From the NCBI GenBank assembly GCA_038049695.1, contig CP142454.1, positions 88,310,501 through 88,374,500 of the forward strand: 64,000 nt of DNA. Direction: 5' to 3'. Positions 4,937 to 64,000 of the stretch are shown here, one piece after another. Under the pieces are notes generated by a model. It did not search any database, was not told where the DNA came from, and saw only the letters and a program-made list of their open reading frames with translations. Every line of letters begins with the position of its first letter. The first letter of the stretch is position 1. The DNA is from Cinnamomum chago. Taxonomy: Eukaryota; Streptophyta; Magnoliopsida; Laurales; Lauraceae. The translations under genes and the position numbers were made by a program.

Positions 4937-5141
4937 CACTACACCAAAAATCGAAAATTGGAACGGAAAAGCGTTCCTAATCCTTCCGTTCCTAATCCGT
5001 TAAAGTGTTCCAATTTCCGTTCCAATTTGGATTAGGAACGGTTGGTACCAAATTGGAACGGAAATTGGAACACTTTAACGGATTAGGAACGGAAGGATTA
5101 GGAACGCTTTTCCGTTCCAATTTCCGATTTTTGGTGTAGTG
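4937..5141. mobile_element. Palindromic CACTA-type MITE, copy 1 (205 bp)
   Basis: Begins CACTACACCAAAAATCG and ends CGATTTTTGGTGTAGTG, with 3-bp duplications GCT at 4934-4936 and 5142-5144, as expected for the CACTA superfamily. It consists of two 94-bp arms (4937-5030 and 5048-5141) around a 17-bp centre, and the arms pair almost throughout. Its vocabulary is GGAACGG and TTCCGTTCC. The same element with the same length recurs at 11423-11627. It has no coding capacity; a transcript would fold into one long hairpin. Confidence 0.9.
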
Positions 5142-6682: not shown

Positions 6683-8358
6683 ATGGCACAATTACCCCCC
6701 AAAGTCCCAACCATGTCCTCCAATTGGCCCAATTTCCCTCACCAAAGAGCCCCCTCCATGGGCAACATGCTATCCAACACCAACCAGCCTTCATGGGTGG
6801 ATGAATTCCTCGACTTCTCGTCGGCTAAGCGCAGCTCTCACCGGAGGTCGGTGAGCGACTCAATTGCATTCCTCGAAGCGCCGCTCGTCGAGGAATGTCA
6901 TGAGAGCGAAGCCGCCGCCGCCGCCGCTGCCGCCACAGCCTTGGGGCATAGTAACAATGAATTCGACCGGTTGGACGACGAGCAGCTCATGTCTATGTTC
7001 TCCAGTGACATTTCGACGGCGGTGCCCCCGACAGTCTCCACGTCCAACCCCTCAACACCGTCGGATCATAATAGTATCAACGATGAGAAACCGGCACCGT
7101 CCGACCAGCAGATGAGGAATGAATCTGAGGTCCAGAGCTTATGCAAATTAGACACACAAGTCACCAATGCACCTTCAACTCCCGGGGCTGAATCCATCAC
7201 TGACCCAAAGAGGGTCAAGAGGTAATGCCTCCATTCTCATGTTTTGTGATTGATTTTAAGGGAACCATGACTGAATTGTTTTAAATTATATCTAATTCTT
7301 CTCTTCAGGATCTTAGCAAACCGGCAATCTGCGCAAAGATCGCGAGTGAGGAAGCTGCAATACATATCTGAGCTTGAACGCAGCGTCACAACATTGCAGG
7401 TATATCATGGGGTTGAAATTGAGCTAGTTACACTTGTGAGTTTTGTTCAAATAGAAAGATTGAATTCCCAAATTTAGAAAAAAATTTAACTACATTGTGA
7501 TTATAATCTAATTTTCTCTAACTCAAGTACCACCATGTTTACAATTTACATCAATGAAGACGGAAGTATCAGCATTGTCTCCCCGCGTTGCATTTCTTGA
7601 TCACCAACGCTTAGTACTTAATGTGGATAACAGCGCTCTTAAGCAAAGGATCGCCGCTCTTGCTCAAGACAAGATTTTTAAGGATGGTAAGTACTTCATT
7701 AGCATTTGATTTTCTTCATAATTATTATCCGCCTTATCTTCTCAATCTGGGGTTAGGCCAATAGAGTTGTGCTCAGAAACCAACACCACAATATCTATCT
7801 TTTGTACTACAAAGTTAATGTCTTACTGTCTCTTTCTCTTATTAGCAATTAATTTCGTTAACAAACTATTGGGCCTCTTCTTGTCGAAGGGAGAATTTTC
7901 TTGTCATGGTGATACACAAACAATGATTTTTATAGAACTGAAAAAAGGGGATAAATGATATCAAGTACTAAAACAAGTTGCATCAAACACCAATCATAGT
8001 TTTCTGCAGAAGTTGAAAAGACTAGGATGAATTTAGAAGTGTAGCATAATCCAATGACTTGGGATTGATTTGGGGGTTTGGAGTTGCCAACCAACTGCCT
8101 TTAAATGGCCATGGCATCCACATAAATCCCAAGTTAGCTGGAGAAATAAAAGCTATTGTTTTTCCCTGACTGTCTGGCCTTTCAGAGTAGGAATTATGAA
8201 GTAGGTGTGTGACTTTGAAATGTTTGATTTTGACTGAAAATGCAGCCCACCAAGAAGCCCTGAGGAAGGAAATAGAAAGACTTCGGCAAGTTTATCACCA
8301 ACAGCACCTTAAGAAAATGGGCTGCAACAACCCCTCCTCTGAGGAGCTCCTCAACTGA
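6683..8358 (+). CDS. Group E bZIP transcription factor (bZIP34/bZIP61-like), four exons
   Basis: Exons 6683-7221, 7309-7399, 7560-7686 and 8246-8358 join through GT-AG introns with consistent phase to give 289 residues. The start MAQLPPKVP matches the family and is preferred to the in-frame ATG at 6629. [14 protein letters not shown] segment (about 37-50) and RRSVSDS (54-60) precede an alanine run at 77-84. The basic region has the N-x7-R signature (N184, R192; [14 protein letters not shown]), and nine residues separate R192 from the first zipper leucine. Leucines follow at 202, 209, 216, 223, 230 and 237. Proline 218 lies inside the zipper; in Arabidopsis bZIP34/61 a zipper proline disfavours homodimers and promotes pairing with group I or S members, so this is probably an obligate heterodimerising nuclear DNA-binding protein. 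It looks intact. The DNA targets are not deducible here. Confidence 0.95.
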
Positions 8359-11422: not shown

Positions 11423-11627
11423 CACTACACCAAAAATCGGAAATTGGAACGGAAAAGCGTTCCTAATCCTCCCGTTCCTAATCCGTTAAACCGTTCCAAT
11501 TTCCGTTCCAATTTGGATTAGGAACGGTTGGTACCAAATTGGAACGGAAATTGGAACGGTTTAACGAATTAGGAACGGGAGGATTAGGAACGCTTTTCCG
11601 TTCCAATTTTCGATTTTTGGTGTAGTG
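11423..11627. mobile_element. Palindromic CACTA-type MITE, copy 2 (205 bp)
   Basis: Same family, length and layout as 4937-5141: arms 11423-11516 and 11534-11627, centre 11517-11533, target duplication AAG at 11420-11422 and 11628-11630. Compared with copy 1 the left arm differs at four positions, three of which have matching complementary changes in the right arm (GT to CC against AC to GG; T to C against A to G). One right-arm change near 11565 is unmatched. Confidence 0.9.
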
Positions 11628-42263: not shown

Positions 42264-44462
42264 TGTTAGGAATTTTCTAGATTGCAATTTGATGGATGCA
42301 TATCATTCTAGCATCATTTGATTTACACACTTGCATTGGTTTTAAAGTAAACTTGAAATCTTGATTTATTCATGCATTGTTTTTAAGATCTTGTTTTATG
42401 CATGATTTGTTTTTAAATCTTGGATGCATTTGTTTTAGAAAAGAGTTTTCAAGAAATCAAGCAAGCCTTTGTTTTAAAAGTTTTGAAACTTTTTAGGCTT
42501 TTTATGTCATGTTTTAAAAACCTTTAAAATCTTTAAAACATGTTTTCCAAGCTTGATTTAGTGGCCAAAAGGTCCCCCAAAGAAATAACTTTGAAATGGC
42601 AAAAGTTGGAAATTTTGTCAAAAAGGGGGAGTCCCGGCAGTGTCGCCGGTCGACCGAGAGGCAGGTCTCGGTCGACCGAGACAACTGCAGGCAAAAATTG
42701 CCTGGGAGCACCAACGGTCAGAAATATGACCGTTGTGTGTTCTCGGTCGACCGAGGCCTGTTTGCCGGTCGACCGAGAACTAGCCGTTGGCCACTTTTCC
42801 CTATAAATATGAGTTCTTTCCCTTGCCAAAAGTTGGGAATTTTTAACCCCTCCTTGAGAGGATTTGAGGCATATCAAAAGGGAAAAGAACCAAGGGATGA
42901 AGGGGAAGATTAGGAAAGCTAAAGCTTGGATTAATGAAGTTAAACCACCAAGTAGGCTCTTCCTTTCTTAATCATATGTTTGCATGCTCTTGTTTTATTT
43001 TTGGTAAATCATTTCTAGCATGTTAAACTATGTTTGTGTTGTGTCCTTAACATATTTTATGTTTTGAGTTGATTTATTGTTTTGGATACAACATCACATG
43101 ATTCAATCCAAGTAGTACTTGAATTGGTAAATCAAAGTAGATCATGTTAATGAAAGAACTTTGGTAAATCATATGTAACATGATCCATATACTTGGTTGA
43201 ATCTTTGATTGTTGTTTTCCATCATAAGAACATCTCTCTCAAAACTAACTTATGTTTTGGATTCAACTTCTTTACAAATCATATGTTTTCATGTTTTGTT
43301 TTATCATTGGTAAATCTTTGTAACATGTTAATCTATGATGTGTTGTATCCTTAGCATGTGTTATATTTTGAATAGATCTATTGTTTTGGATACATCACCA
43401 TTGATTCATCAAAGTAGTACTTTATCTTTGGTAAATCTAAGTAGATCATGTTAATGAAATATGTAACATGATTCATATACTTTGTTGAATCATTGGTTGT
43501 TGTTTTTCCATCATAAGAAAATCTCTTTCAAATGTATCTTATGTTTTGGATTCAACATCATTACAAATCATATGTGTATTATTGTTTTTAAAGTATCAAC
43601 TTGCTTTACTTTGATAGGTATATCATTTTCAAGTTGTCTTTATAATTACATATGATTTGTCCCCTTACTTCAATCAAATCTAATTTTATGTTTTGAGCTT
43701 CATTGATGATTTGATTGACATCCCTATGCATCACATGTTTAGAGCTAATCCATTTCATACAACTTGTGTAACTTTGATATCATTAACAAGTTGTTACTTT
43801 TAACATGTGATTGCATTACATCCTCAATCATAAATGTTTTTGAGCTAAAACTTTCAAAAGCCTTAGGCATACATTTATGAGCTTTCATTTTAAAAATGAT
43901 TGAGGACATCACACACACACTTCATTTGTTTTCATCTTTGCATTCATAGTGTGAGTGTGTATTTGTATTTCACTTCCATATCCGCCTATTTTAGAGGCAA
44001 ATGTAATGAGCTAAAATGAATCTCCATCTAGTGTATTAAAGACACAACTTAGTGAGATAACCAACCTATGGTTGAAGAGGTTATTGCTTAGCCTATAAAA
44101 GCATATTGTATAGGTTGATGTTAAGCCTTGAAAAACATCAATGTAAAGGTTATTGCTTAGCCTTGGAAAGCATATTGTAAAGGTTATTGCTTAGCCTATT
44201 GAAAAGCATAAATAGTGGAAATCCGGTGGGGTGTTGGATCACAAGCCGGTAGTGGATGTAGGCATTGAGGCCGAACCACTATAAATCCTTGTGTGATGGT
44301 GCTTGCTTTGTGGTGATTGTTTATATTAGCTTCCGCATATTGTTTGATAATCATCACTTGTGACTAGTTTGTTTTAAAGAAGTTAAAATTGTTAAAATTG
44401 GTCATAAAAGAAGCTCACCCTATTCACCCCCCCTCTAGGGTTCGGATCCCCATGGACTTACA
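42264..44462 (+). repeat. 5' LTR of the hairpin retrotransposon
   Basis: TG...CA ended, 2199 bp, offset 5223 bp from the 3' LTR. The first 500 bp hold the promoter region (palindromes and TATA). 43000-43950 is AT-rich and itself contains hairpins, for example CAAATCATATGT 43564-43575 with 43648-43659, enclosing CAACTTG 43597-43603 with 43630-43636 whose loop contains AGGTATATCATTTT; CAATCAAATC 43671-43680 with 43708-43717; and TCCTCAATCAT 43821-43831 with 43896-43906. TTGGTAAATC words recur five or six times. The open frames at 42533-42913 occur in both LTRs and are not genes. Confidence 0.93.
42646..42809 (+). promoter_or_regulatory. LTR promoter: four GGTCGACC palindromes and a TATA box
   Basis: CGGTCGACCGAG occurs at about 42647-42658, 42669-42680, 42744-42755 and 42766-42777; the second and third are extended to CTCGGTCGACCGAG. 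Between the pairs lies CAACGGTC (42712-42719) facing GACCGTTG (42728-42735) across eight bases. TATAAATA follows at 42802-42809. Paired repeats upstream of a TATA box are the usual site of enhancer boxes in plant LTRs such as Tnt1. The binding factor is unknown. The same set recurs in the 3' LTR 5223 bp further on. Confidence 0.7.
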
Positions 44463-44464
44463 AG

Positions 44465-44475
44465 TGGTATCAGAG
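44465..44475 (+). other. Primer-binding site (initiator tRNA-Met)
   Basis: TGGTATCAGAG begins two bases after the LTR end and is complementary to the 3' end of plant initiator methionine tRNA, the usual primer for plant LTR retrotransposon minus-strand synthesis. Confidence 0.9.
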
Positions 44476-44610
44476 AGGGTTACTCCATTTTAGGGCTTAA
44501 CAACCCGGAGTTGATCCTTGCTAGATTTGAACCCTAGTGTTGTGATTTAATTGCATATCTTTTTAAAGATTTCCACTATGATTGAAAATGATATTTCCCT
44601 AGCCTCATTG

Positions 44611-46893
44611 CACCACTCTTAGTCTTTTTCAAGTTATATCTTTAAGAGTTGGTGAGTCCTCAAAGTGATCTTTCAAGGACAACCTTTTCAAGGCTTTAGG
44701 TGAATTTTCAAAGGTAGACTATTTGAGTAACCTTAGGCCTTGCTCCCCCTAGACCAACCTATTCTTTTTAGTCAAATCTTTTTGTTGGTCTTTGTTACAT
44801 TTGCATTTTGTTGCTTTTTAGTCACATCTTTTAAAATGCAATGTTCCTTTGTGATCATTTGATTTTGTCTTCATGAACTTTTATAGTTATATCTCATGGT
44901 TTTCAAAATCCTTTGATTGCAACCTTTTCATGATGGATTTGCATTTTGATCATATAGTTATATTTCTTGTAGTGCATATCTATTCATGATCAATTGATTG
45001 TGATTACAAATGCTTTCATAGCTAGTTTTTCATGATCAATTGATGTTGGAAAATCATTTGATGTTTGTCATAGTTAGATCCTTTTTGGAAATCAAATGAT
45101 TTGAAGCAACCTTAGTTTTCCATTGATTTACAAGTTATATCTTTTGATATGGAAAATTTGTAAGTGTCTATTGTTTTTACAAATTGAAAACTTTACAATA
45201 GTACACTTCTTGTTTTTCAAAATCACTTGCTCTTAATTCTATAAATGATTCTTTGTTGGAATTTCATACATTGAAGTGATTTGAAAAACTTTGGAAAATG
45301 TTCTAAGCTTTATTAGTTATATTTATAGAAGCATTTTCCTTGAATTTATTTCCTTGTGCCTAATTATGATTGTATCTTTTGAAAGGAAATAATTTTTACA
45401 AACAATTTGCATCTTTGCTCTTTTAGTTATATTTCTTTATGCAAATTGATTTTGATGTCTTACATTGCTTGGTTGGATATGGTTTCATTGATTTGCATTT
45501 TTGTGATTATCTTGGTATATATTCTCATTAATGCATTTTGATGATTGTTTATGTGCTTTATAGTAAAATCTTGTTTTTGAGCTTTTTAAGTACATATGTG
45601 ATTTTATGTGCTAAGTTCATTTGGTATAGACCTCATATCCATTTTCCATTGCATTGTAAGCTTAGTACATTTGCTAAGAGTGGAGATGTTACATGATAGA
45701 TTGATTTCTTTAACTTCATACCTTCTTGTGCTTAAATAGTTATATTCCTTTTTGGATGATTGGTATGAGTTAGATCTTGAATGTTGATTAATCCTCTCTA
45801 TGCAAATGTCATAGTGTTCTATGTATGGTTGTGGTATTTATAATATTTGTTGAAACCATACTAGAACCCAAATCCATCCTCTTTGCCTTCTAGTCATATT
45901 TTTATTGGATGGTTATGATGTTGATTCATGTGTATTTTCTAAGTGTTTTCATTCTTATACATGTTTCAACTTCATAAGTAGTGTTCTTAATCATATGAAA
46001 CTCTTTGAAACCCATTTCTCATATTTCTATATGTTTGATGGATATCTTAGATGTTGAATTCATATGATTTAGACACTTTGGAAATTGCATGCTTTACCAA
46101 GTCATATCTTTTTGCATTGCAATTTCTCTTGTTCATCACTATGCTCTTTAGTTATATCTTTAAAAGTGATGAATATGCATTTATGATGCTTGATGGAACT
46201 TTGTGTTTGCCTCATTCTTGCTCTTTATCATGTTATCAAATTCAATTGATTTCAATTGGTATAATGATTGATTGATTTGATTTCTTGTGAATGTGATAAA
46301 CCTTGTGTGCATTGGATTGAACTTGATAAGTAATATGTTTGTTCCATGTCACACACCATTAGCATCATAATGTTCATGTTGCCACCTCTTTTGCTCTCAT
46401 AGGTATATCTCATGACCACCATGTTTATGTGTTCATAATATTGGTTGGTTATTAGTTGAGGTTGGCTTCATGCTTGAATTTCATTTCACTCATCTTGCAC
46501 TTTAATAGTCATATTTAATGATTGAATGAAATGATTTTCAAAACTTTCATAGCATATGTTCTTCTTAGTTAAATTTTTTGATGCTATGATTAGTAAACCC
46601 CATTGCTTCATGGATAGCTCTAATTTGGATTTTTCCTAATAGGTATATCTTTAAATCCATTTTAGAGTGATTGATTTTATTAAGTCATATCCTTAGATCT
46701 CAATTGGTATTCTTTGTTTTTCCAATTGATATCCATGATTGCTTTTCTCTTTGACCTTGCTTTCTTTTGGCAATTTGATCATATGAGCTTTATAGTTAAA
46801 TGAATCTAATCCTTTCCTTGAAGTTGACCCTCATTGGTAAAACCATCTTCTTCTTGCATCTAATAGTTAAATCTTTGTCAAATGTTTGACAAA
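44611..46893 (+). repeat. Array of about twenty hairpins with unlike stems and a common loop motif
   Basis: Each unit is an inverted repeat whose arms are unique to that unit, around a loop of mostly 20-40 nt holding a TAGTTATATCTTT-like word. Arm pairs: 44611-44620/44644-44654; 44751-44758/44784-44791; 44801-44809/44833-44841; 44861-44867/44904-44910; 44936-44943/44973-44980; 44989-44998/45035-45044; 45051-45062/45091-45102 (12 bp); 45116-45123/45149-45156; 45162-45174/45195-45208; 45213-45228/45274-45288; 45293-45305/45326-45339; 45346-45355/45383-45392; 45403-45412/45439-45448; 45550-45558/45588-45596; 45716-45722/45762-45768; 45874-45879/45907-45912; 46081-46089/46118-46126; 46132-46140/46165-46173; 46481-46492/46523-46534; 46547-46555/46581-46589; 46618-46632/46653-46667; 46696-46707/46722-46733. 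Motifs start near 44631, 44769, 44819, 44884, 44955, 45071, 45132, 45314, 45424, 45561, 45738, 45891, 46099, 46149, 46400, 46506, 46566, 46640, 46682, 46793 and 46864. A few stems (45162, 45213, 46696) lack a clear motif. Confidence 0.88.
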
Positions 46894-47094
46894 AGGAGAG
46901 AATGGATTGAGGGGGAGTGTAAACCTTCATAGGAAGTATTAGTTTTGATCAAATTGACCCTTAGATTGCCTTTGAGCCCTTAGAGACTACTACCTCACAT
47001 GATAGCCTGTTATGTATTTCATTTTCGATTTCATTTGTTAACAGGTGCTACTAAAGGTATTTTCTTTGTTTCATGTGTGTAGGTACCTTTGCAA

Positions 47095-47486
47095 TTTAAT
47101 GGCAAAGGGGGAGAAATTATGCAAGTTCTCAAAAGGGTAAAGAGAATGTCCAAGTTTCCTAAGAAGAGGTTTTGTATGATCTTCTACAAGGGGAGAGAAT
47201 ACATACCTTGCCAAAGGGAGAAAGAGGCATGGTCAAAGGGGGAGAGCTATTAGAAGAAAGAAAGCTTGGAGCTAAAGAAGATGCTTGGCCAAAGAAAGAA
47301 AGAAGAAAGAAAGATTGAAGATTGATCAAGCACCAAGCATCATGAAGAATGAAGAGAAGAAAAGAGCCCAAGCTAAGATAAGCATCCAAGAAGATTTCAA
47401 GCCTTGTCCAGCTGAGGGGGAGCTGAAGACGAAGTGTGTAATTTCAGTGGTGAGTGTGTTTGCCATCAAATTGCAAAGGGGGAGAT
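47095..47486 (+). other. Purine-rich 3' interior with repeated polypurine tract
   Basis: AAAGGGGGAGA occurs near 47103, 47235 and, before the 3' LTR, at 47475-47485; GAGGGGGAGCTG lies near 47415. The last copy directly abuts the LTR and is the plus-strand primer site. The sequence between is AAG/GAA-rich. Its + strand frame (47285-47503) is low-complexity and runs into the LTR, so it is not called as a gene. Confidence 0.75.
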
Positions 47487-49685
47487 TGTTAGGAATTTTC
47501 TAGATTGCAATTTGATGGATGCATATCATTCTAGCATCATTTGATTTACACACTTGCATTGGTTTTAAAGTAAACTTGAAATCTTGATTTATTCATGCAT
47601 TGTTTTTAAGATCTTGTTTTATGCATGATTTGTTTTTAAATCTTGGATGCATTTGTTTTAGAAAAGAGTTTTCAAGAAATCAAGCAAGCCTTTGTTTTAA
47701 AAGTTTTGAAACTTTTTAGGCTTTTTATGTCATGTTTTAAAAACCTTTAAAATCTTTAAAACATGTTTTCCAAGCTTGATTTAGTGGCCAAAAGGTCCCC
47801 CAAAGAAATAACTTTGAAATGGCAAAAGTTGGAAATTTTGTCAAAAAGGGGGAGTCCCGGCAGTGTCGCCGGTCGACCGAGAGGCAGGTCTCGGTCGACC
47901 GAGACAACTGCAGACAAAAATTGCCTGGGAGCACCAACGGTCAGAAATATGACCGTTGTGTGTTCTCGGTCGACCGAGGCCTGTTTGCCGGTCGACCGAG
48001 AACTAGCCGTTGGCCACTTTTCCCTATAAATATGAGTTCTTTCCCTTGCCAAAAGTTGGGAATTTTTAACCCCTCCTTGAGAGGATTTGAGGCATATCAA
48101 AAGGGAAAAGAACCAAGGGATGAAGGGGAAGATTAGGAAAGCTAAAGCTTGGATTAATGAAGTTAAACCACCAAGTAGGCTCTTCCTTTCTTAATCATAT
48201 GTTTGCATGCTCTTGTTTTATTTTTGGTAAATCATTTCTAGCATGTTAAACTATGTTTGTGTTGTGTCCTTAACATATTTTATGTTTTGAGTTGATTTAT
48301 TGTTTTGGATACAACATCACATGATTCAATCCAAGTAGTACTTGAATTGGTAAATCAAAGTAGATCATGTTAATGAAAGAACTTTGGTAAATCATATGTA
48401 ACATGATCCATATACTTGGTTGAATCTTTGATTGTTGTTTTCCATCATAAGAACATCTCTCTCAAAACTAACTTATGTTTTGGATTCAACTTCTTTACAA
48501 ATCATATGTTTTCATGTTTTGTTTTATCATTGGTAAATCTTTGTAACATGTTAATCTATGATGTGTTGTATCCTTAGCATGTGTTATATTTTGAATAGAT
48601 CTATTGTTTTGGATACATCACCATTGATTCATCAAAGTAGTACTTTATCTTTGGTAAATCTAAGTAGATCATGTTAATGAAATATGTAACATGATTCATA
48701 TACTTTGTTGAATCATTGGTTGTTGTTTTTCCATCATAAGAAAATCTCTTTCAAATGTATCTTATGTTTTGGATTCAACATCATTACAAATCATATGTGT
48801 ATTATTGTTTTTAAAGTATCAACTTGCTTTACTTTGATAGGTATATCATTTTCAAGTTGTCTTTATAATTACATATGATTTGTCCCCTTACTTCAATCAA
48901 ATCTAATTTTATGTTTTGAGCTTCATTGATGATTTGATTGACATCCCTATGCATCACATGTTTAGAGCTAATCCATTTCATACAACTTGTGTAACTTTGA
49001 TATCATTAACAAGTTGTTACTTTTAACATGTGATTGCATTACATCCTCAATCATAAATGTTTTTGAGCTAAAACTTTCAAAAGCCTTAGGCATACATTTA
49101 TGAGCTTTCATTTTAAAAATGATTGAGGACATCACACACACACTTCATTTGTTTTCATCTTTGCATTCATAGTGTGAGTGTGTATTTGTATTTCACTTCC
49201 ATATCCGCCTATTTTAGAGGCAAATGTAATGAGCTAAAATGAATCTCCATCTAGTGTATTAAAGACACAACTTAGTGAGATAACCAACCTATGGTTGAAG
49301 AGGTTATTGCTTAGCCTATAAAAGCATATTGTATAGGTTGATGTTAAGCCTTGAAAAACATCAATGTAAAGGTTATTGCTTAGCCTTGGAAAGCATATTG
49401 TAAAGGTTATTGCTTAGCCTATTGAAAAGCATAAATAGTGGAAATCCGGTGGGGTGTTGGATCACAAGCCGGTAGTGGATGTAGGCATTGAGGCCGAACC
49501 ACTATAAATCCTTGTGTGATGGTGCTTGCTTTGTGGTGATTGTTTATATTAGCTTCCGCATATTGTTTGATAATCATCACTTGTGACTAGTTTGTTTTAA
49601 AGAAGTTAAAATTGTTAAAATTGGTCATAAAAGAAGCTCACCCTATTCACCCCCCCTCTAGGGTTCGGATCCCCATGGACTTACA
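47487..49685 (+). repeat. 3' LTR of the hairpin retrotransposon
   Basis: Matches the 5' LTR apart from one difference seen (A at 47914 for G at 42691). Ends TTACA before the AATTT duplication. Confidence 0.93.
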
Positions 49686-56914: not shown

Positions 56915-58315
56915 TATGTAACCCATTCAGAACTACTACTGAGGCTAGTGTGTTCCCTTGATACATGCATAAACATAATATTTGTGCCTGTGGTTCTTTT
57001 CTTGCAGTGACTAATCTTGGAGCCATTATACAAAATCCCCTCCTTCAAATTGTGCACAAGGGAACTTGTAAGAACACCTGTCATTCAAATTAGAATTGCT
57101 CTATCAATTCTAATTTTGTTATATCATATTTTATGTACATTCGTTTGATAATAGCTCACCAATTTGGCATCTCTCATCAACCTTACCGACTGCATTGATC
57201 ATCAAGATGACAAGCTTAGTCATTGTCATGAGTTCATGTATTTGTTTCAGATCTCTTATCCTTTTGGCAAACAAGTGTTACATATTGACCAGATTGGGAA
57301 TAATGACATCGATAGAGGTCATGTATGATTTTTTTATATGGTCATCAATCTTTAAACATAATTGGCATATATAGTTCCTTTAAATGGCTTTTAAGATAAT
57401 TACTATATACAATTTCCTTTTACGAGTACTCAATACACGTTTCTACTCAATGCATCTCTCTCTACCAACAATGAAAAAGTCAGTTTTCTGAAATTATTAT
57501 GCCTTCAAAGCTGCCCTTTTCACATTCCTGCATTTTCAGGCCTCTCTGTATAAGGAACCGGAGACAAAGGTTGAGGAATGGAGGAGGATATAGATTAGGG
57601 TTGGTAAGTCCTCTCTTTTGTCTAATACTTCAGAGGTTGTTTGGGTGTACTAAAGATACAGGTTGTTCATTGAGCGGACGAGATGCATATGTGATCATTG
57701 GATAATGAAGTTTCTGACTTCCATGTCAGGTGATGCAAAGGGGACTCACCGTGGAGAATGCATGGATGGGATGGTGCACCCATACACTTGTGGAATGATA
57801 TATGGGTATGACAGCCATTTTTTCAGATAATTTGAGTGTGAATTTGACTTTGACAAAATTCTTTAACTTATTTTAATATCGGGTGGTATATATGCATTAG
57901 AAGGCCATCTCAATTTATTTTAAGTTGTGTTTTGCTTTCTTTTCTTCTTGTACTCGTCTTTGCATGTGTTTTGAAAATCAGGTCATAGAAACAGAGATAA
58001 ATGAATTGTTGGTTAAAGGCAAATGACTTATATTCCTAGTGAAATTTACCACTTTGTGCAATTCTTTCATTGGTTTTCTTGTGATACTGTTGTGTTCAGA
58101 GCACAAGCTAATGCCCTGCTTAGCTTTGCACTTAAATCATTTAAACTTGTTACACATATCTGACACTAAAACAAGCATATTTGCATTCACTGCGTATATA
58201 CGTTTTAGATACATTTCTTTTTCTTTGTGTATATTGGTTATTTATATTGGTTATGTTGATAATCATACATTTTGTCATTCTAATGAAAATCTTATCTACT
58301 AGCAGGGACCTTGGC

Positions 58316-58379
58316 GTTACCAATTTGACGAGTAATTCTTACTAACTTTGATGGGTTGTCTGCAATAGACTTTATGCAA
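58316..58379 (+). pseudogene. Second, decayed copy of the LRR exon
   Basis: Resembles 56632-56707 with a frame-breaking difference and a GT donor kept. The surrounding 58020-58390 aligns with 56400-56720 (both contain TTACACATATCTGACACTAA), so about 0.35 kb is directly repeated 1.6 kb apart inside CACTA-A. Confidence 0.6.
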
Positions 58380-58424
58380 GTAATCAGGCTTTTCATATGC
58401 GATGTTTTCCCCCTCTTTATGCAA

Positions 58425-58958
58425 CGTAGGTTTAAGTTAGAACTTGAACTTAAAACTTAGAAAACGAGCATCCGGCCGCCCATAACGAGCAAACGGGCTC
58501 CGTTGCCCGTGAAACTTGACGGGCACGGGCTCGTAGTCATTCATGACTTGCAGGAACTGACGAAACGAGATTCCGGATCCCGGATTTCTCGTACAGTTGA
58601 AACGTAGGTTTAAGTTAGAAATATAATTTAAAACTTAGAAAACGAGCTTCCGGGCGCCCAAAATGAGCAAACGGGCTCCGTTGCCCGTGAAACTTGACGG
58701 ACACGGGCCCCTAGTCATTCATGACTTGCAGGAACTGACGGAACGAGATTCCGAATCCCGGATTGCTCGTATAGTTGAAACGTAGGTTTAAGTTAGAACG
58801 TTAACTTAAAACTTAGAAAACAAGCTTCCAGGCGCTCAAAACAAGCAAACGGGCTCCGTTGCCCGTGAAACTTGACGGGCACGGGCCTCTAGTTATTCAT
58901 GCCTTGCATAAACTGACGGAACAAGATTCCGAATCCCGGATTGCTTGTAATGTTGAAA
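58425..58958. repeat. 178-bp tandem repeat, three copies
   Basis: CGTAGGTTTAAGTTAGAA-type unit starts fall at 58425, 58603 and 58781, with a fourth truncated start at 58959; spacing is 178 bp each time. Units contain CAAACGGGCTCCGTTGCCCG and GTTCCGGATCCCGGAT-like words. GC-rich compared with its surroundings. Lies just inside the right subterminal region of CACTA-A. Confidence 0.92.
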
Positions 58959-59289
58959 CGTTGGTTAAAATTTTAATTTTAATTCTTAATTTTTTTATAT
59001 TTATTATAAATTGCCAATTTTTATACTTATCTATTAATATTTATTTTTCTTTTTCTGTTCAGGTTTGAGAGCATCGGATATACAACGGCACCCTGCACGA
59101 AAAAAAAAAATTCCTGTAATTGTAATGGATATAATTTCTTGAAACTTTTGTAATGTTTTGAATGTAATTAATATAAGACTTTATTTTGTTATTTGTAATT
59201 TTAATTGATGGTAGTAGTTGTATATACTCAGGTACATGTACAGGTACGAAAAAAGGACAAAATTTGAGAAATACGGAATATTTTTTTTA

Positions 59290-59629
59290 AAAAAATTTGT
59301 TATCTTTAGCGGTCGCCACTGGCACTAATAGCGAACGCCAGTGGCGGCCGCTAATACTTAAAAAAAGATTTTAAAAAAATAAAAATTCAAATAAACAATG
59401 TATTAGCTACCGCTTTGGCGGTCGCTAATAGTCCAAATTATTTTTAAAAATTATTTGCGACCGCCTCGTTGCGGCCGCAAAAAGTATTAGCAACCGCCAC
59501 TTTTTGCGACGAAGTTTTCGCGTCTGTCGCGAGTCGGTCGCTGAGCGGTCGCTAAAGAGTATTAGCAACCGCCAGCCCACTTTTAGCGACGGCTTTTGGC
59601 AGTCGCTAAAAGTCAATTTTCTAGTAGTG
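59290..59629. repeat. Right subterminal region of CACTA-A
   Basis: GCGGTCGC, GCGACCGC and GCGGCCGC words in both orientations, ending TTTCTAGTAGTG. The left counterpart is 29264-29372. Presumed transposase-binding repeats. Confidence 0.85.
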
Positions 59630-59632
59630 TCT

Positions 59633-60080
59633 ACTCCTCTCTGTGCTCAATGAAAAACCCCTATTCACCAACGTTTTCTTCCTTCTTTTTTTTGTTCTCT
59701 GTGTGATGAATAAAAAACCTTTTTGCCCTTACACTTTTACTCTTCTCTATGATCAATGAACAACACACTTTCCATACGTTTTTTCTTCTTTTCTATTCAA
59801 TGAAGATTCCTCCTTTGCACACATGTCATCTCCTTCTTATCTTAGACCTTAGATCCTAAAAAGTTGGATCATAGTTTCTATACAAGTGTCCTTTTCCATA
59901 AGTGCATACCCAATAGTTGTGGACCCCACTGATGAGCTTTTATGAAGACTTTTGCATTCCCATTAGATTGGGCCTTTGCACAACTGGGCTGCAAGTGGGT
60001 TGTTGGGCTGACCCACTAAAATTGCCATACTATATTGACAACAATTTCAACTCCAAATCCAAACCCAAGTATGATCAACA
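59633..60080 (-). repeat. Copia 3' LTR, proximal part
   Basis: Right part of the split LTR in + coordinates, the 5' end of the LTR on the element strand, which begins TGTTGATCATACTTGGGTTT. Joins to 28555-29263 across the CACTA-A insertion. Confidence 0.75.
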
Positions 60081-60287
60081 ATCTCCCCCTTTGGAATTGT
60101 TGTCAACCAAAGAAAATTTTCTTCTAAACAAGTGAACTCCCCCTGACACCAAACACCTCTCTACTGTATCTTCAAAGCCTTTAGATACCAACCATTCTCC
60201 CCCTTTGACAACAAGAACAAAGGGCACCCATAGAGAGCAAGATACATAGGAAAAAAAAATTCATGCTCCCCCTATGAACAAGATCTC
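60081..60287 (-). other. Copia polypurine tract and 3' untranslated interior
   Basis: On the - strand CCAAAGGGGGAGAT ends directly at the LTR (60081). Further GGGGGAG words occur opposite 60138, 60196 and 60268, so the polypurine tract is present as several copies, as in the hairpin retrotransposon. Confidence 0.8.
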
Positions 60288-61118
60288 CTATTTCTTTGGA
60301 GCCGCAATAACTCCTAATTTCTTCCGAAGATATTCAAAAACTTCCTTTGGTAGAGGCTTTGTAAAGATATCTGCAACCTGTTCTGAGGTAAGGATATACT
60401 CTAGTTTGACTTCACCATCTGTCACTTTGTCTTTTAAAAAATGGTATCGAATGGCTATGTGCTTTGTCCTTGCATGTTGCACTGGATTTTTGGAAATGTT
60501 GATAGCACTTGTGTTGTCACACATGATAGAAATAGGCTCTATGATCTGGATTCCCAAATCTTTCAGCATCTGTCGCATCCACAACACCTGAGTACAACTA
60601 GTAGATGCAACAATATATTCTGCTTCAGCTGTAGACAGAGAGACTGATTCCTGCTTTTTACTGTGCCATGCTACAAGTTTGTCTCCTAAGTAAAATGCTC
60701 CTCCACTTGTGCTTTTCCTGTCATCAATGCAACTAGCCCAGTCGGCATCAGAATACGCAATCAAAGTAAAGGCCTTTCCTTTAAGATACCACGGTCCATA
60801 TTCCAATGTGCCTCGAAGATATCTGAAAATTCTCTTCACTGCTGTAACATGTGTTTGTTTGGGATCAACTTGAAACCTTGCAACCATGCAAACTGCCTGA
60901 AGAATGTCCGGACGAGTAGCGGTCAAGTAAAGTAGATTCCCGATCATTGAACGGTAGAGAGTATGATCAACTGAGTCGGAATTGTTACCTTTGCTAAGTT
61001 TACAGCTAGTTATCATGGGAGTGCTAACAGGCTTACTGTCCTCCATGTTGAACTCCTTCAACATCTCTTTCACATACTTGATTTGAGACATGAAAAGTCC
61101 TTCCTTCATCTGTTTCAC
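60288..61118 (-). pseudogene. Copia RNase H and end of reverse transcriptase
   Basis: Open frame of 276 codons containing RSMIGNLLYLTATRPDI, the RNase H motifs YSDADWASCIDDRKSTSG and STAEAEYIVAS, and TKHIAIRYHFLKD. These form the copia RNase H domain, which degrades the RNA strand during reverse transcription; the Asp, Glu and Asp residues expected at the active site are visible. It is cut off from the upstream polymerase by a stop at 61119-61121. Confidence 0.92.
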
Positions 61119-62414
61119 CTATAGTCCGAGAAAGAACGATAACTCTCCTATCATAGACATCTCAAACTCAGTTTTCATCCTTTCTGCAAAGTCCTTACAT
61201 TGTTCATCTCGTTTGCCAGCAAAGATGATATCATCCACATATACCACTACAACTACTTGATTACCCTCTGTTGTCTTTACATATAGATTGTTGTCCACTA
61301 CCCCTTTCTTGTATCCAAGCTGTTGTAGGTAAGAGTCCAACCGAGAGTACCATGCCCTAGGTGCCTGTTTTAAGCCATAAAGAGCCTTTTTCAACTTACA
61401 CACCATGTTCAAATCATCACCAATCTGAAACCCATTCGGCTGCTCAATGTACACCTCCTCTTCAAGATTGCCATTTAAAAATGCAGACTTGACATCCATT
61501 TGATATATCTTGAAGTGTTTGTATACTGCCAAAGCAAGAAACATACGGATGGCTTCAAGTCTAGCCACTGGTGCAAAAGTCTCTTCAAAGTCGATTCCCT
61601 CAACTTGTGCATAACCCTTGCAAACCAACCTTGCTTTGTTTCTCACCACCTGTCATTCTTCATTTAACTTGTTCCGAAAAACCCACTTGGTACCAATTAT
61701 GTTCTTGTTTGCAGGTCGTGGTACAAGTTCCCATGTCTGATTCTTCTCAATTTGATCTAACTCCTCATTCATAGCCTTCACCCAACTTTCATCCTTGCTT
61801 GCTTCAATGACATTCCTGGGTTCAATGCTGGATAGGAGAGAATACATACTTGTCATCATCCTTCTTGTCTGAATTCCTGCCTTTTCATCACCAAGAATGT
61901 TGGTTTCCTTGATGCCATGATATTCATGCCATCTGCTATTTTCTCCCTTTTTATCTGAATAATCCTCAGATTCTCCTTCCTTTTTATTATCAGATGGTGC
62001 TATAGTTTCACTGTCATCATTGCCATCCTCATATACTGGAAGTTCCTGCTTACTAGTTTCTGGCTGTTCAACCTGTTCATCAAACTTGACATCAATACTT
62101 TCAACTATTTTGTGAAGTCTTTTGTTATAACATCTGTAGGCCCTGCTTCTAGTTGAGTAACCCATAAAGATGCCTTCATCTGCCTTTTCATCAAACTTGC
62201 CCATGTTCTGCTCAATTCTCGTGATGTAGCATTTACTTCAAAAGACTTTAAAGTGTTTGACAATTGCCTTCCTTCCAAACCATAGTTCATACGGAGTTTT
62301 CTCTTCATGAGGTCTGAGCATACACCTGTTCTGAATGTATACAGCAGTTTGAACTGCTTCTTTCCAATACCTATCAGAGAGCTTGCTTTCGATTAACATG
62401 GTTCTGCCCATCTC
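61119..62414 (-). pseudogene. Copia integrase C-terminus and reverse transcriptase core, with stops
   Basis: Reading on the - strand: ELWFGRKA and GIFMGYSTRSRAYR (integrase end), then [64 protein letters not shown] and the catalytic YVDD within [12 protein letters not shown]. In-frame stops lie at 62238-62240, 61653-61655 and 61119-61121. The frame is otherwise continuous across this interval. The element could not make a complete polymerase. Confidence 0.92.
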
Positions 62415-63141
62415 CTAAACAGTTCTATTCTTTCTTTCTACCACACCATTCTGTTGAGGTGTCCGAGCTGCTGAGAATTGTCTTCTGATGCCATGCTTCT
62501 GACAATACTCTTCAAATTCTTCAGAAATGAATTCACCACCTTTGTCTGATCTTAAACATTTGATCCTCCTTCCAATGTGATTCTCAACCTGTTTTCTGAA
62601 AACTTTGAACATGTCAAGAGCTTCATTTTTTATGTTTCAGAAACATTATCCATGTCATTCTTGAAAAGTCATCAATACATAACATAAAGTATTTATGACC
62701 ATTGATGCTTTGAGTCCTCATAGGACCACACAGATCAGTATGTACTAACTCCAATGGCTTGCTGGTGTGATGTTCTTTTGACTTGAAAGAGGTTCTAGTA
62801 AGTTTTCCTTTTTGACATGCATCACAAACAACAGTTGAAGACTTTCCTATATGAGGAATATCCCTTACTGCCTTCTTGGAATGGATCTTTGATAGGTTAT
62901 CAAAGCTTATATGTCCAAGTCTTCTATGCCATAATCTGCTCTCATCAACTTGTCCAATAGCACATGTTTCCTTGACAGTTTCAGATAGTGTGTAGAGATT
63001 GCCGGATGTCCTTGAGCCAACAGCTACAACTTTGCCATTGCTAGACCTCCTTATCTCAAATCCCTGCTTCTGGAACACCACCTCATGTCCTTGATCACAT
63101 ATCTGACTCACACTCATAAGACTGTGCTTCAGCCCATTCAC
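62415..63141 (-). pseudogene. Copia integrase, with frameshift and stop
   Basis: Contains the zinc-binding HRRLGH...CDACQKGK pair, the core aspartates in HTDLCGPM and SDKGGEF, and the glutamate in NGVVERKNR. A one-base frameshift in an A run near 62620-62630 separates the N-terminal half (62623-63141) from the catalytic remainder (62415-62612). A stop lies at 62415-62417. Confidence 0.92.
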
Positions 63142-63189
63142 AAATAAAACTTCTTTGGAAGTTATCTTCCCATGATTTAGTTGAACTGC

Positions 63190-63459
63190 TCATTTTCCAA
63201 CTATCTTGGCACCATCATTATTTCCAAATTTTACAGAGCCTCCATCATATTGTTCTAGATTCATGAACCTGTCCTTGTCTCCTGACATATGATTTGAGCA
63301 GCCACTGTCAAGTATCCAAGGTGTTGGCTCATTCTGTGCTTTAAGAGTTGTCTGAACAATCAAAGATTCGGCTTTGTTTTTCTTACTCTCTTTCCTTTTC
63401 CACACTTTCTTATACTTCCCTTCTTGTTTTTCTTTTTCATAATGCACCTGTTGCACCAT
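63190..63459 (-). pseudogene. Copia protease
   Basis: WILDSGCSNHMSGDKDRF holds the aspartic protease D-S-G catalytic triad (threonine replaced by serine, common in copia). A lysine-rich segment precedes it. A stop at 63190-63192 separates it from the integrase frame. Confidence 0.9.
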
Positions 63460-63468
63460 GTGAATATT

Positions 63469-64000
63469 TTACTTTTGTTTCAAAGCATTAGCATGATAAT
63501 AGTAATCCTGAAAGATGGTAGTAGGATATTGGTATGCATACACACAGTCCCTGGCTATATCCCCAAAGTTGTGGCAATTGTAGCATTCTAAGGGATTCAT
63601 AATCAGGGCTTCAAATGGGTTCCTACTGACATAATTTCTAGGCCTTTCATTAAATTTACAGGTAGCTATCTTGTGGCCAAAAGTATTACACTTAAAGCAA
63701 TGACCATTAAAGTAAGGAGCAAACCTGTAAAATGATGATTGCCTTTGTAAAGGAGCCGTGAATCTTTGCTGAGATTGATGCGCCATAGATGCTACATGTT
63801 TCTTTGGTTGTTGCACAATTTTAGATTGAGCAGGCTGAGCAATTACTTTTTGAATCTTCTCAACATGTGACCTTTCTTGTTTGGTTGAAGACTCACCCTT
63901 CTCAAAACCCAGACCAAACTTTATATGTGAAGGTCGCTGATTTTTCATAATTTCATTCAACTTGGTTGATCCTTCATATGTCTTCAGTTTCTGATTAGTC
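63469..64000 (-). pseudogene. Copia gag C-terminal part, two zinc knuckles
   Basis: CFKCNTFGHKIATC fits the C-x2-C-x4-H-x4-C nucleocapsid knuckle. A second, CYNCHNFGDIARDC, has aspartate where the histidine belongs, so metal binding there is doubtful. A stop at 63469-63471 separates it from the protease. The gag start lies beyond the window. Confidence 0.85.

Follow-up and report, generated by a model that had tools for sequence, protein, structure and literature searches.

The window analysed here, a 64,000-nt stretch of the Cinnamomum chago genome, contains an LTR retrotransposon at positions 42264-49685, with a long row of hairpins inside its internal domain (Table 1). The two LTRs are 2199 bp each and differ at one of 2199 sites (position 42691), AATTT is present at both flanks of the element, and the internal domain is 3024 bp long. 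No ORF of at least 150 aa occurs within 42264-49685, so gag-pol coding capacity is lacking, and an initial annotation of this DNA had rightly placed the hairpins in an LTR element without genes. Judged by its sequence, the element is a young, LARD-like derivative of a Sirevirus (Ty1/copia), and it is classed as non-autonomous because no gag-pol-sized ORF is present.

Sirevirus hallmarks of the element

Several features support this classification. Each LTR carries four copies of CGGTCGACCG, corresponding to the CGG-CCG boxes of Sireviruses, upstream of the TATA box; CGGTCGACCG is the same consensus as the repeated motif (RM) of the Vitis Sirevirus (Table 3 of PMC2829016). The parts of that account used here describe a conserved TATA position after the boxes, a C-rich integrase signal and an inverted repeat flanking the polypurine tract (PPT) in Sireviruses. 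In the present element, 29 bp separate the end of the C-rich integrase signal (CACCCCCCC) from the end of the LTR. The 5' junction follows the Sirevirus pattern of CA/A(T or G)TGG and TATCAGAGC, reading CA/AGTGG TATCAGAGA, with A as the final base where the published ninemer has C. At the other end of the internal domain, a terminal AGGGGGAG is followed by AT/TG (47485-47488) and preceded by four upstream copies, and the inverted repeat at the PPT junction is a perfect one of 14 bp whose left arm borders the PPT. As in LARDs, the LTRs, primer-binding site (PBS) and PPT are retained around a multi-kb internal domain without coding capacity, and the RNA structure predicted for that domain appears to be conserved among copies. 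Scans of viral contigs for the PBS and PPT junctions returned 0 matches, and the four Rfam matches (E 0.42-0.93) all fell below the gathering score.

Other repeats were seen in the window and in the genome. A second, different Sirevirus-like remnant lies on the minus strand at 60083-64000, with PPT octamers at 60083, 60137, 60197 and 60266 and with pol pieces (RVT_2, SH3, GAG-pre-integrase) in separate frames. A fold-back element of 205 nt, its 94-nt arms separated by 17 nt, is present in two copies that are 96% alike (4937-5141 and 11423-11627). Elsewhere in the genome, the internal domain occurs in head-to-tail tandem runs with a spacing of about 5.1-5.3 kb (G000:C10:6674601-6729627, G000:C8:50218617-50266596 and G000:C8:42230381-42248345; 11, 10 and 4 units, respectively, among the matches listed), as LTR-internal units turned satellite-like.

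Table 1. Features of the LTR element and of its hairpins, in window coordinates
Feature	Position	Strand	Evidence
5' LTR, TG...CA	42264..44462	+	1 mismatch vs 3' LTR; AATTT flanks
Four CGGTCGACCG palindromes (42647, 42669, 42744, 42766), Sirevirus repeated-motif boxes	42647..42775	+	Sequence
TATA box TATAAATA, directly after RM cluster	42802..42809	+	Sequence
Eight LTR loop words: AGGCATATC (42867); TGGTAAATC (43002, 43125, 43162, 43308, 43429); TGTTATATT (43359); AGGTATATC (43616)	42867..43624	+	
LTR hairpin, 10-bp perfect stem, TGGTAAATC in loop	43140..43185	+	Folding z -2.41
LTR hairpin, 7-bp stem, AGGTATATC in loop	43597..43636	+	Folding z -2.54
LTR hairpins without canonical word (43670-43718, 43759-43794, 43828-43880, 43915-43960)	43670..43960	+	
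PolyC-rich integrase signal close to LTR end	44415..44440	+	Sequence
PBS junction: TATCAGAG (Met tRNA type) after an AGTGG spacer	44463..44475	+	Sequence
Motif hairpin 1	44615..44649	+	Perfect-arm search, folding
Motif hairpin 2	44751..44791	+	Perfect-arm search, folding
Motif hairpin 3	44801..44841	+	Perfect-arm search, folding
Motif hairpin 4	44861..44910	+	Perfect-arm search, folding
Motif hairpin 5	44946..44993	+	Perfect-arm search, folding
Motif hairpin 6, 12-bp perfect stem (45051-45062/45091-45102)	45051..45102	+	Perfect-arm search, folding
Motif hairpin 7	45116..45156	+	Perfect-arm search, folding
Motif hairpin 8	45293..45339	+	Perfect-arm search, folding
Hairpin 9, degenerate loop word TGATTGTATCTTT	45346..45392	+	Perfect-arm search, folding
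Motif hairpin 10, 10-bp stem (45403-45412/45439-45448)	45403..45448	+	Perfect-arm search, folding
Motif hairpin 11, 7-bp stem, loop long and variable	45716..45768	+	Perfect-arm search, folding
Hairpin without canonical word	45823..45861	+	Perfect-arm search, folding
Motif hairpin 12, 6-bp stem	45874..45912	+	Stem score, folding
Motif hairpin 13	46081..46126	+	Perfect-arm search, folding
Motif hairpin 14, exact TAGTTATATCTTT (arms 46132-46140/46165-46173)	46130..46175	+	Perfect-arm search, stem score, folding
Motif hairpin 15, stem long and interrupted	46474..46541	+	Folding
Motif hairpin 16 (46547-46555/46581-46589)	46547..46589	+	Perfect-arm search, folding
Motif hairpin 17	46618..46667	+	Stem score; folding z -4.30
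Final loop word AGTTAAATC, lacking a perfect stem of at least 7	46865..46873	+	Word and stem searches
Five PPT octamers AGGGGGAG (46910, 47106, 47237, 47415, terminal 47477)	46910..47484	+	AT precedes 3' LTR
Inverted repeat spanning terminal PPT/3' LTR junction (47463-47476 with 47505-47518)	47463..47518	+	Read by eye
3' LTR; loop words repeated at +5223	47487..49685	+	LTR alignment, sequence

Hairpins in excess of chance around a shared loop word

The range 44464-46900 was searched for hairpins whose arms are perfect over at least 7 bp and whose loops span 14-40 nt. This array holds 29 of them, against 6.6±2.5 (maximum 11) in 30 dinucleotide shuffles, and the 5' LTR holds 15, against 6.3±2.1 (maximum 11). 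The row had been suggested to exceed chance, and these counts bear that out; the stems given as examples (45051/45091, 45403/45439, 46132/46165 and 46547/46581) are all present. Aligned genome copies fully cover 28 of the 29 array hairpins; 17 of these enclose the loop word, two of the 17 being overlapping pairings of one hairpin (46478/46481), and 11 are without it.

A degenerate form of the word, [AT]G[TG][TC]AnAT[CT], was composed after inspection of the sense-strand units, and it occurs in 44464-46900 at 21 sites on the sense strand and none on the antisense strand (1.54±1.22, maximum 6, in 300 shuffles). The LTR has eight on the plus strand and none on the minus strand (shuffles 1.36±1.11). 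Word sites for the measurement of stems were taken as the 22 positions with at most 3 mismatches to TAGTTATATCTTT. Their mean stem score is 9.23, as against 7.1 elsewhere in the array and 6.19±0.29 (maximum 7.08) after the flanks had been shuffled 200 times; shuffled sequence of equal composition thus lacks motif-centred stems of this kind, as had been anticipated. Thirteen of the 22 sites score at least 9, compared with 5% on average in the flank shuffles; the other nine score below 9, and four of these are clearly weak (45767, 46682, 46400 and 46328). Of 23 units, 17 have a loop of 20-30 nt; in 14 the word begins 8-12 nt past the 5' arm, and in 11 the 3' arm starts 3-7 nt past the word. Within imperfect stems of the array (44464-46900), T-T is the most frequent mismatch (16 of 30), and across copies several A-T pairs, often terminal in their stem, become T-T.

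The intended stem was predicted in each of 20 hand-chosen units (18 from the array and two from the LTR), with z scores from -1.10 to -4.30. Sliding-window folding gave mean z scores of -1.26 (sense) and -1.03 (antisense) for the array and of -1.82/-1.95 (sense/antisense) for the 5' LTR; the mean for the remaining window was -0.2 to -0.4, with single 2-kb tiles reaching -1.18 (58001-60000). Folding of the copy alignment (34 of 43 copies) gave mean z scores of -2.45 sense and -2.35 antisense relative to column shuffles in which dinucleotides were not kept.

Conservation of stems among genome copies

Copies of the internal domain were collected from the same 1.06-Gb genome (14 contigs), yielding 61 aligned sequences, of which 56 are non-redundant, with the window's own copy included. 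They are a sample near three queries, being the best 40 of 6761-6881 candidates per search, and the number of candidates is not a copy number; their identity to the window is about 88-98%. Smaller sets were also used, one of 43 sequences reduced to 38 and one of 25, for which the partial copies L037-L039 and identical copies were dropped (leaving 29), followed by four more near-identical copies. An allele was counted as shared when common to at least five copies in the 56-copy set, or to four in the 38-copy set.

In the 56-copy set, the 17 word-bearing stems carry 10 shared alleles over 277 sites and the 11 other stems 12 over 141. The loop core carries 22 over 188, other loop positions 69 over 293 and the sequence between hairpins 208 over 1384, which brings the non-stem total to 299 over 1865. 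The rate in word stems is therefore 0.036 per site as against 0.160 outside stems, about a quarter of background, and the stems do not decay freely among family copies. Singletons, which are probably to a large extent post-insertion changes, are less unevenly distributed (85 over 418 stem sites and 572 over 1865 others). The odds ratio of shared alleles versus singletons, taken over all stems, is 0.50 (p=0.0044), and in the 38-copy set it is 0.42 (p=0.0026). When the map of word stems was shifted circularly along the alignment of 25 copies, no shift reached an equally low rate; for the map of the other stems, 0.26% did.

Among copies, conservation is highest in the stem sequence, and the loop core exceeds the sequence between hairpins by only a small margin. 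The initial annotation had held that sequence is kept in the loop and only pairing in the stem, which describes the relation between units of the array and fails for the relation between copies. The positions of the core AGTyAwATY that vary most among units, 4 and 6, vary among copies as well: over 22 units they carry 9 and 7 shared alleles, respectively, compared with 4 at position 9 and 0-3 at each of positions 1, 2, 3, 5, 7 and 8. The most variable loop positions among copies are those immediately preceding the word. Word and pairing both look constrained, each in its own way.

The stems were chosen in one copy, and inverted repeats 201-1600 nt apart served as a control for this ascertainment. 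Overall they lie close to background, with 0.116-0.156 shared alleles per site once local stems are excluded, compared with 0.053 for local repeats, and with arms of at least 8 the values are 0.122 and 0.030. With longer arms the distant repeats come nearer to the local values (at least 9: 0.067 for 19 repeats vs 0.032; at least 10: 0.051 for 7 repeats vs 0.012), which counts against a stem-specific constraint. Between 44611 and 46893, repeats 101-200 nt apart are low like the local ones (22 repeats, 0.057 per site with local stem sites left out), and this class might reflect longer-range pairing.

Strong compensatory change in the stems, which the wording of the initial annotation had implied, is not supported by the 56 closely alike copies: in their 17 word-bearing stems, just four base pairs occur with more than a single Watson-Crick type, all four sit at stem ends or adjoin them, and elsewhere the stems retain their sequence. 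These pairs are 44620/44644 (AA28 AT21 TA6), 46547/46589 (TA33 TT17 AT5), 46081/46126 (GA23 GC16 AA10 TA3 and others) and 45346/45392 (TA46, CG1 and others). As a whole, the stem data support selection on structure, with compensatory change scarce.

Loop words and hairpins of the LTR

Five of the eight LTR words are copies of TGGTAAATC, some of them within an internal duplication of about 300 bp. All eight lie downstream of the TATA box only and are therefore probably part of the transcript, whose start we infer to be slightly downstream of that box. The first copy of the duplication (43140-43185) has the loop word, unlike the second (43428-43472), in which a 9-bp stem (43445-43472) is kept around a loop of just 10 nt and the word is absent.

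The signal of stem constraint in the LTR is weaker than that in the internal domain. In 23 copies, the 15 perfect LTR stems have 10 shared alleles over 237 sites vs 99 over 1242 (p=0.042), a comparison that omits L042 and L043 as well as the poorly aligned L047 (69% identity) and L059 (83%). With L047 and L059 included and L042 and L043 omitted, stems were not depleted (34/212 vs 188/1271), and a comparison of seven sequences showed little difference (17/196 vs 134/1304). No allele common to at least two of the 23 copies falls in the stems of the LTR hairpins within 43670..43960.

Interpretation

The word occurs on the sense strand only and, in the LTR, only after the TATA box, which favours RNA as the level at which the hairpins would act, and we consider it likely that they are selected there. 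Most of the internal domain (44615-46893) would then fold, in the RNA of the element, into a succession of short hairpins, many with loops mostly of 20-30 nt around AGTyAwATY, and hairpins with related words would extend into the LTR after the TATA box. That the loops share a word under position-specific constraint speaks for a ligand able to read them. The putative ligand is the Gag of an autonomous Sirevirus; Sirevirus Gag is described as having an RNA-binding zinc knuckle in the portion of PMC2829016 used here. Each hairpin would present its loop to this protein, the array would act as a multivalent packaging signal, and an RNA encoding no protein could compete for the particles of its helper. 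That the LARD-like RNA is a string of selected hairpins offering repeated Gag-binding sites of a helper is a tentative reading, to which we give slightly less than an even chance. A stronger version, in which the element lives as a parasitic RNA and its genome has turned into a multivalent packaging signal, with some 17-20 internal and several leader hairpins displaying one loop word and out-competing helper RNA for Gag particles, is possible, and we are inclined to doubt it; if true, it would help to explain the apparently high copy number of a gene-less element. Against Gag binding to RNA count the near-equal folding of the antisense strand, the lack of G-U excess, the few pairs with two-sided change, the small lead of the loop core over inter-hairpin sequence in conservation, the low values of the longer-armed distant repeats and of the 101-200 nt class, the nine of 22 word sites scoring below 9 and the 11 of 28 perfect-arm hairpins without the word.

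The constraint data do not specify a ligand, and RNA hairpins might instead be selected for dimerisation, stability, a translation-silent spacer, a host RNA protein or the steering of small RNAs. In Ty1, kissing hairpins are important to both transposition and the stability of the RNA, according to the part of PMC5454406 used here, and palindrome-cluster regions of maize Sireviruses attract small RNAs in the corresponding part of PMC10760457. A mere spacer, however, would not need a shared loop word with position-specific constraint, and kissing between identical loops would be weak, as just ATAT of the word is self-complementary. Overall we judge such a role outside Gag binding somewhat unlikely.

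An action on DNA would involve cruciform or single-strand cDNA structures, or double-stranded protein sites serving heterochromatin, reverse transcription or integration. It would agree with stems that are nearly all Watson-Crick: G-U shows no excess over A-C in the stems (26 vs 68 of 7905 cells in 56 copies, 41 of the 68 A-C cells coming from one edge pair). The antisense strand folds comparably well (18/18 array units, z -1.21 to -4.31). The stems by themselves do not settle the choice between RNA and DNA. The words speak against DNA, being confined to the sense strand (21:0 in the array and 8:0 in the LTR, with a word composed from sense units) and, in the LTR, to the sequence after the TATA box, and we regard this alternative as improbable.

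Still less probable is a mutational origin, in which template switching during reverse transcription or replication makes and repairs perfect hairpins at a pause word and no function is served. Perfect stems can arise and persist through template switching, as stated in the part of PMC8794818 used here, and the stems of the array are both perfect and mutually unlike; such a process nevertheless predicts changing stems, and the stems observed keep their sequence, at the low rate of shared alleles given above. Chance pairing in a region that is AT-rich and T-skewed, or the remnant of a simple tandem repeat, has next to no likelihood, given that dinucleotide shuffles fall far short and that copies show stem constraint; for chance in T-rich DNA, the shuffles of stem counts, stem scores and word counts rule it out.

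Comparison with known systems

Integron attC sites retain their structure across sites that differ in sequence, whereas in this plant element the loop word is the shared part, and the likeness to attC that had been proposed for the array found no support beyond shape. Another resemblance is to the dispersed packaging signals of RNA viruses and hepatitis B virus (HBV), in which there are likewise many stem-loops with a common loop word, and the present element has multiple stem-loops with a shared loop word too. The excerpted accounts describe HBV stem-loops with RGAG in their loops (PMC7612645) and multiple sites with capsid affinity in the enterovirus genome (PMC7793301); affinity for the capsid protein is reported in those systems and predicted for this plant retrotransposon. 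Hairpins of Ty1 RNA are required for helper-driven transposition of mini-Ty1, and in the part of that account used here (PMC5454406) the 5' packaging domain features two specific pseudoknot hairpins near the 5' end, unlike a row of hairpins with like loops.

Sireviruses, including that of Vitis, share with the element the PPT octamer, the multiple PPTs, the AT/TG junction, the PPT inverted repeat, the CGG-CCG boxes, the TATA box after them, the PBS junction and the C-rich integrase signal, as far as the consulted sections of PMC2829016 go; they differ in that the hairpin array here replaces gag-pol. The same sections describe palindromic LTR boxes and a PPT inverted repeat and mention no such array. 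None of the titles and abstract openings covered by the literature search described a retrotransposon with an array of hairpins that share a loop word. To our knowledge, the recruitment of a helper by protein-less retrotransposons is poorly defined, and a hairpin that recurs under constraint and displays a defined word in its loop would be a concrete candidate recruitment signal that can be tested in vitro.

The nearest relatives in organization are LARDs, which, like the present element, have LTRs around an internal domain without encoded proteins. The LARD Sukkula is Ty3/gypsy-like, whereas the present element bears the hallmarks of a Sirevirus (Ty1/copia). RNA secondary structures of the internal domain in LARDs such as Sukkula are called well conserved in PMC7215508, an account whose portion used here makes no mention of unlike hairpins set in a row and sharing a loop word. 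A Sirevirus-type LARD with unlike stems and one loop word has no counterpart in the titles and abstract openings covered, and it would illustrate that a non-coding internal domain can be selected for the shape of its RNA, to an extent measurable from genome copies alone.
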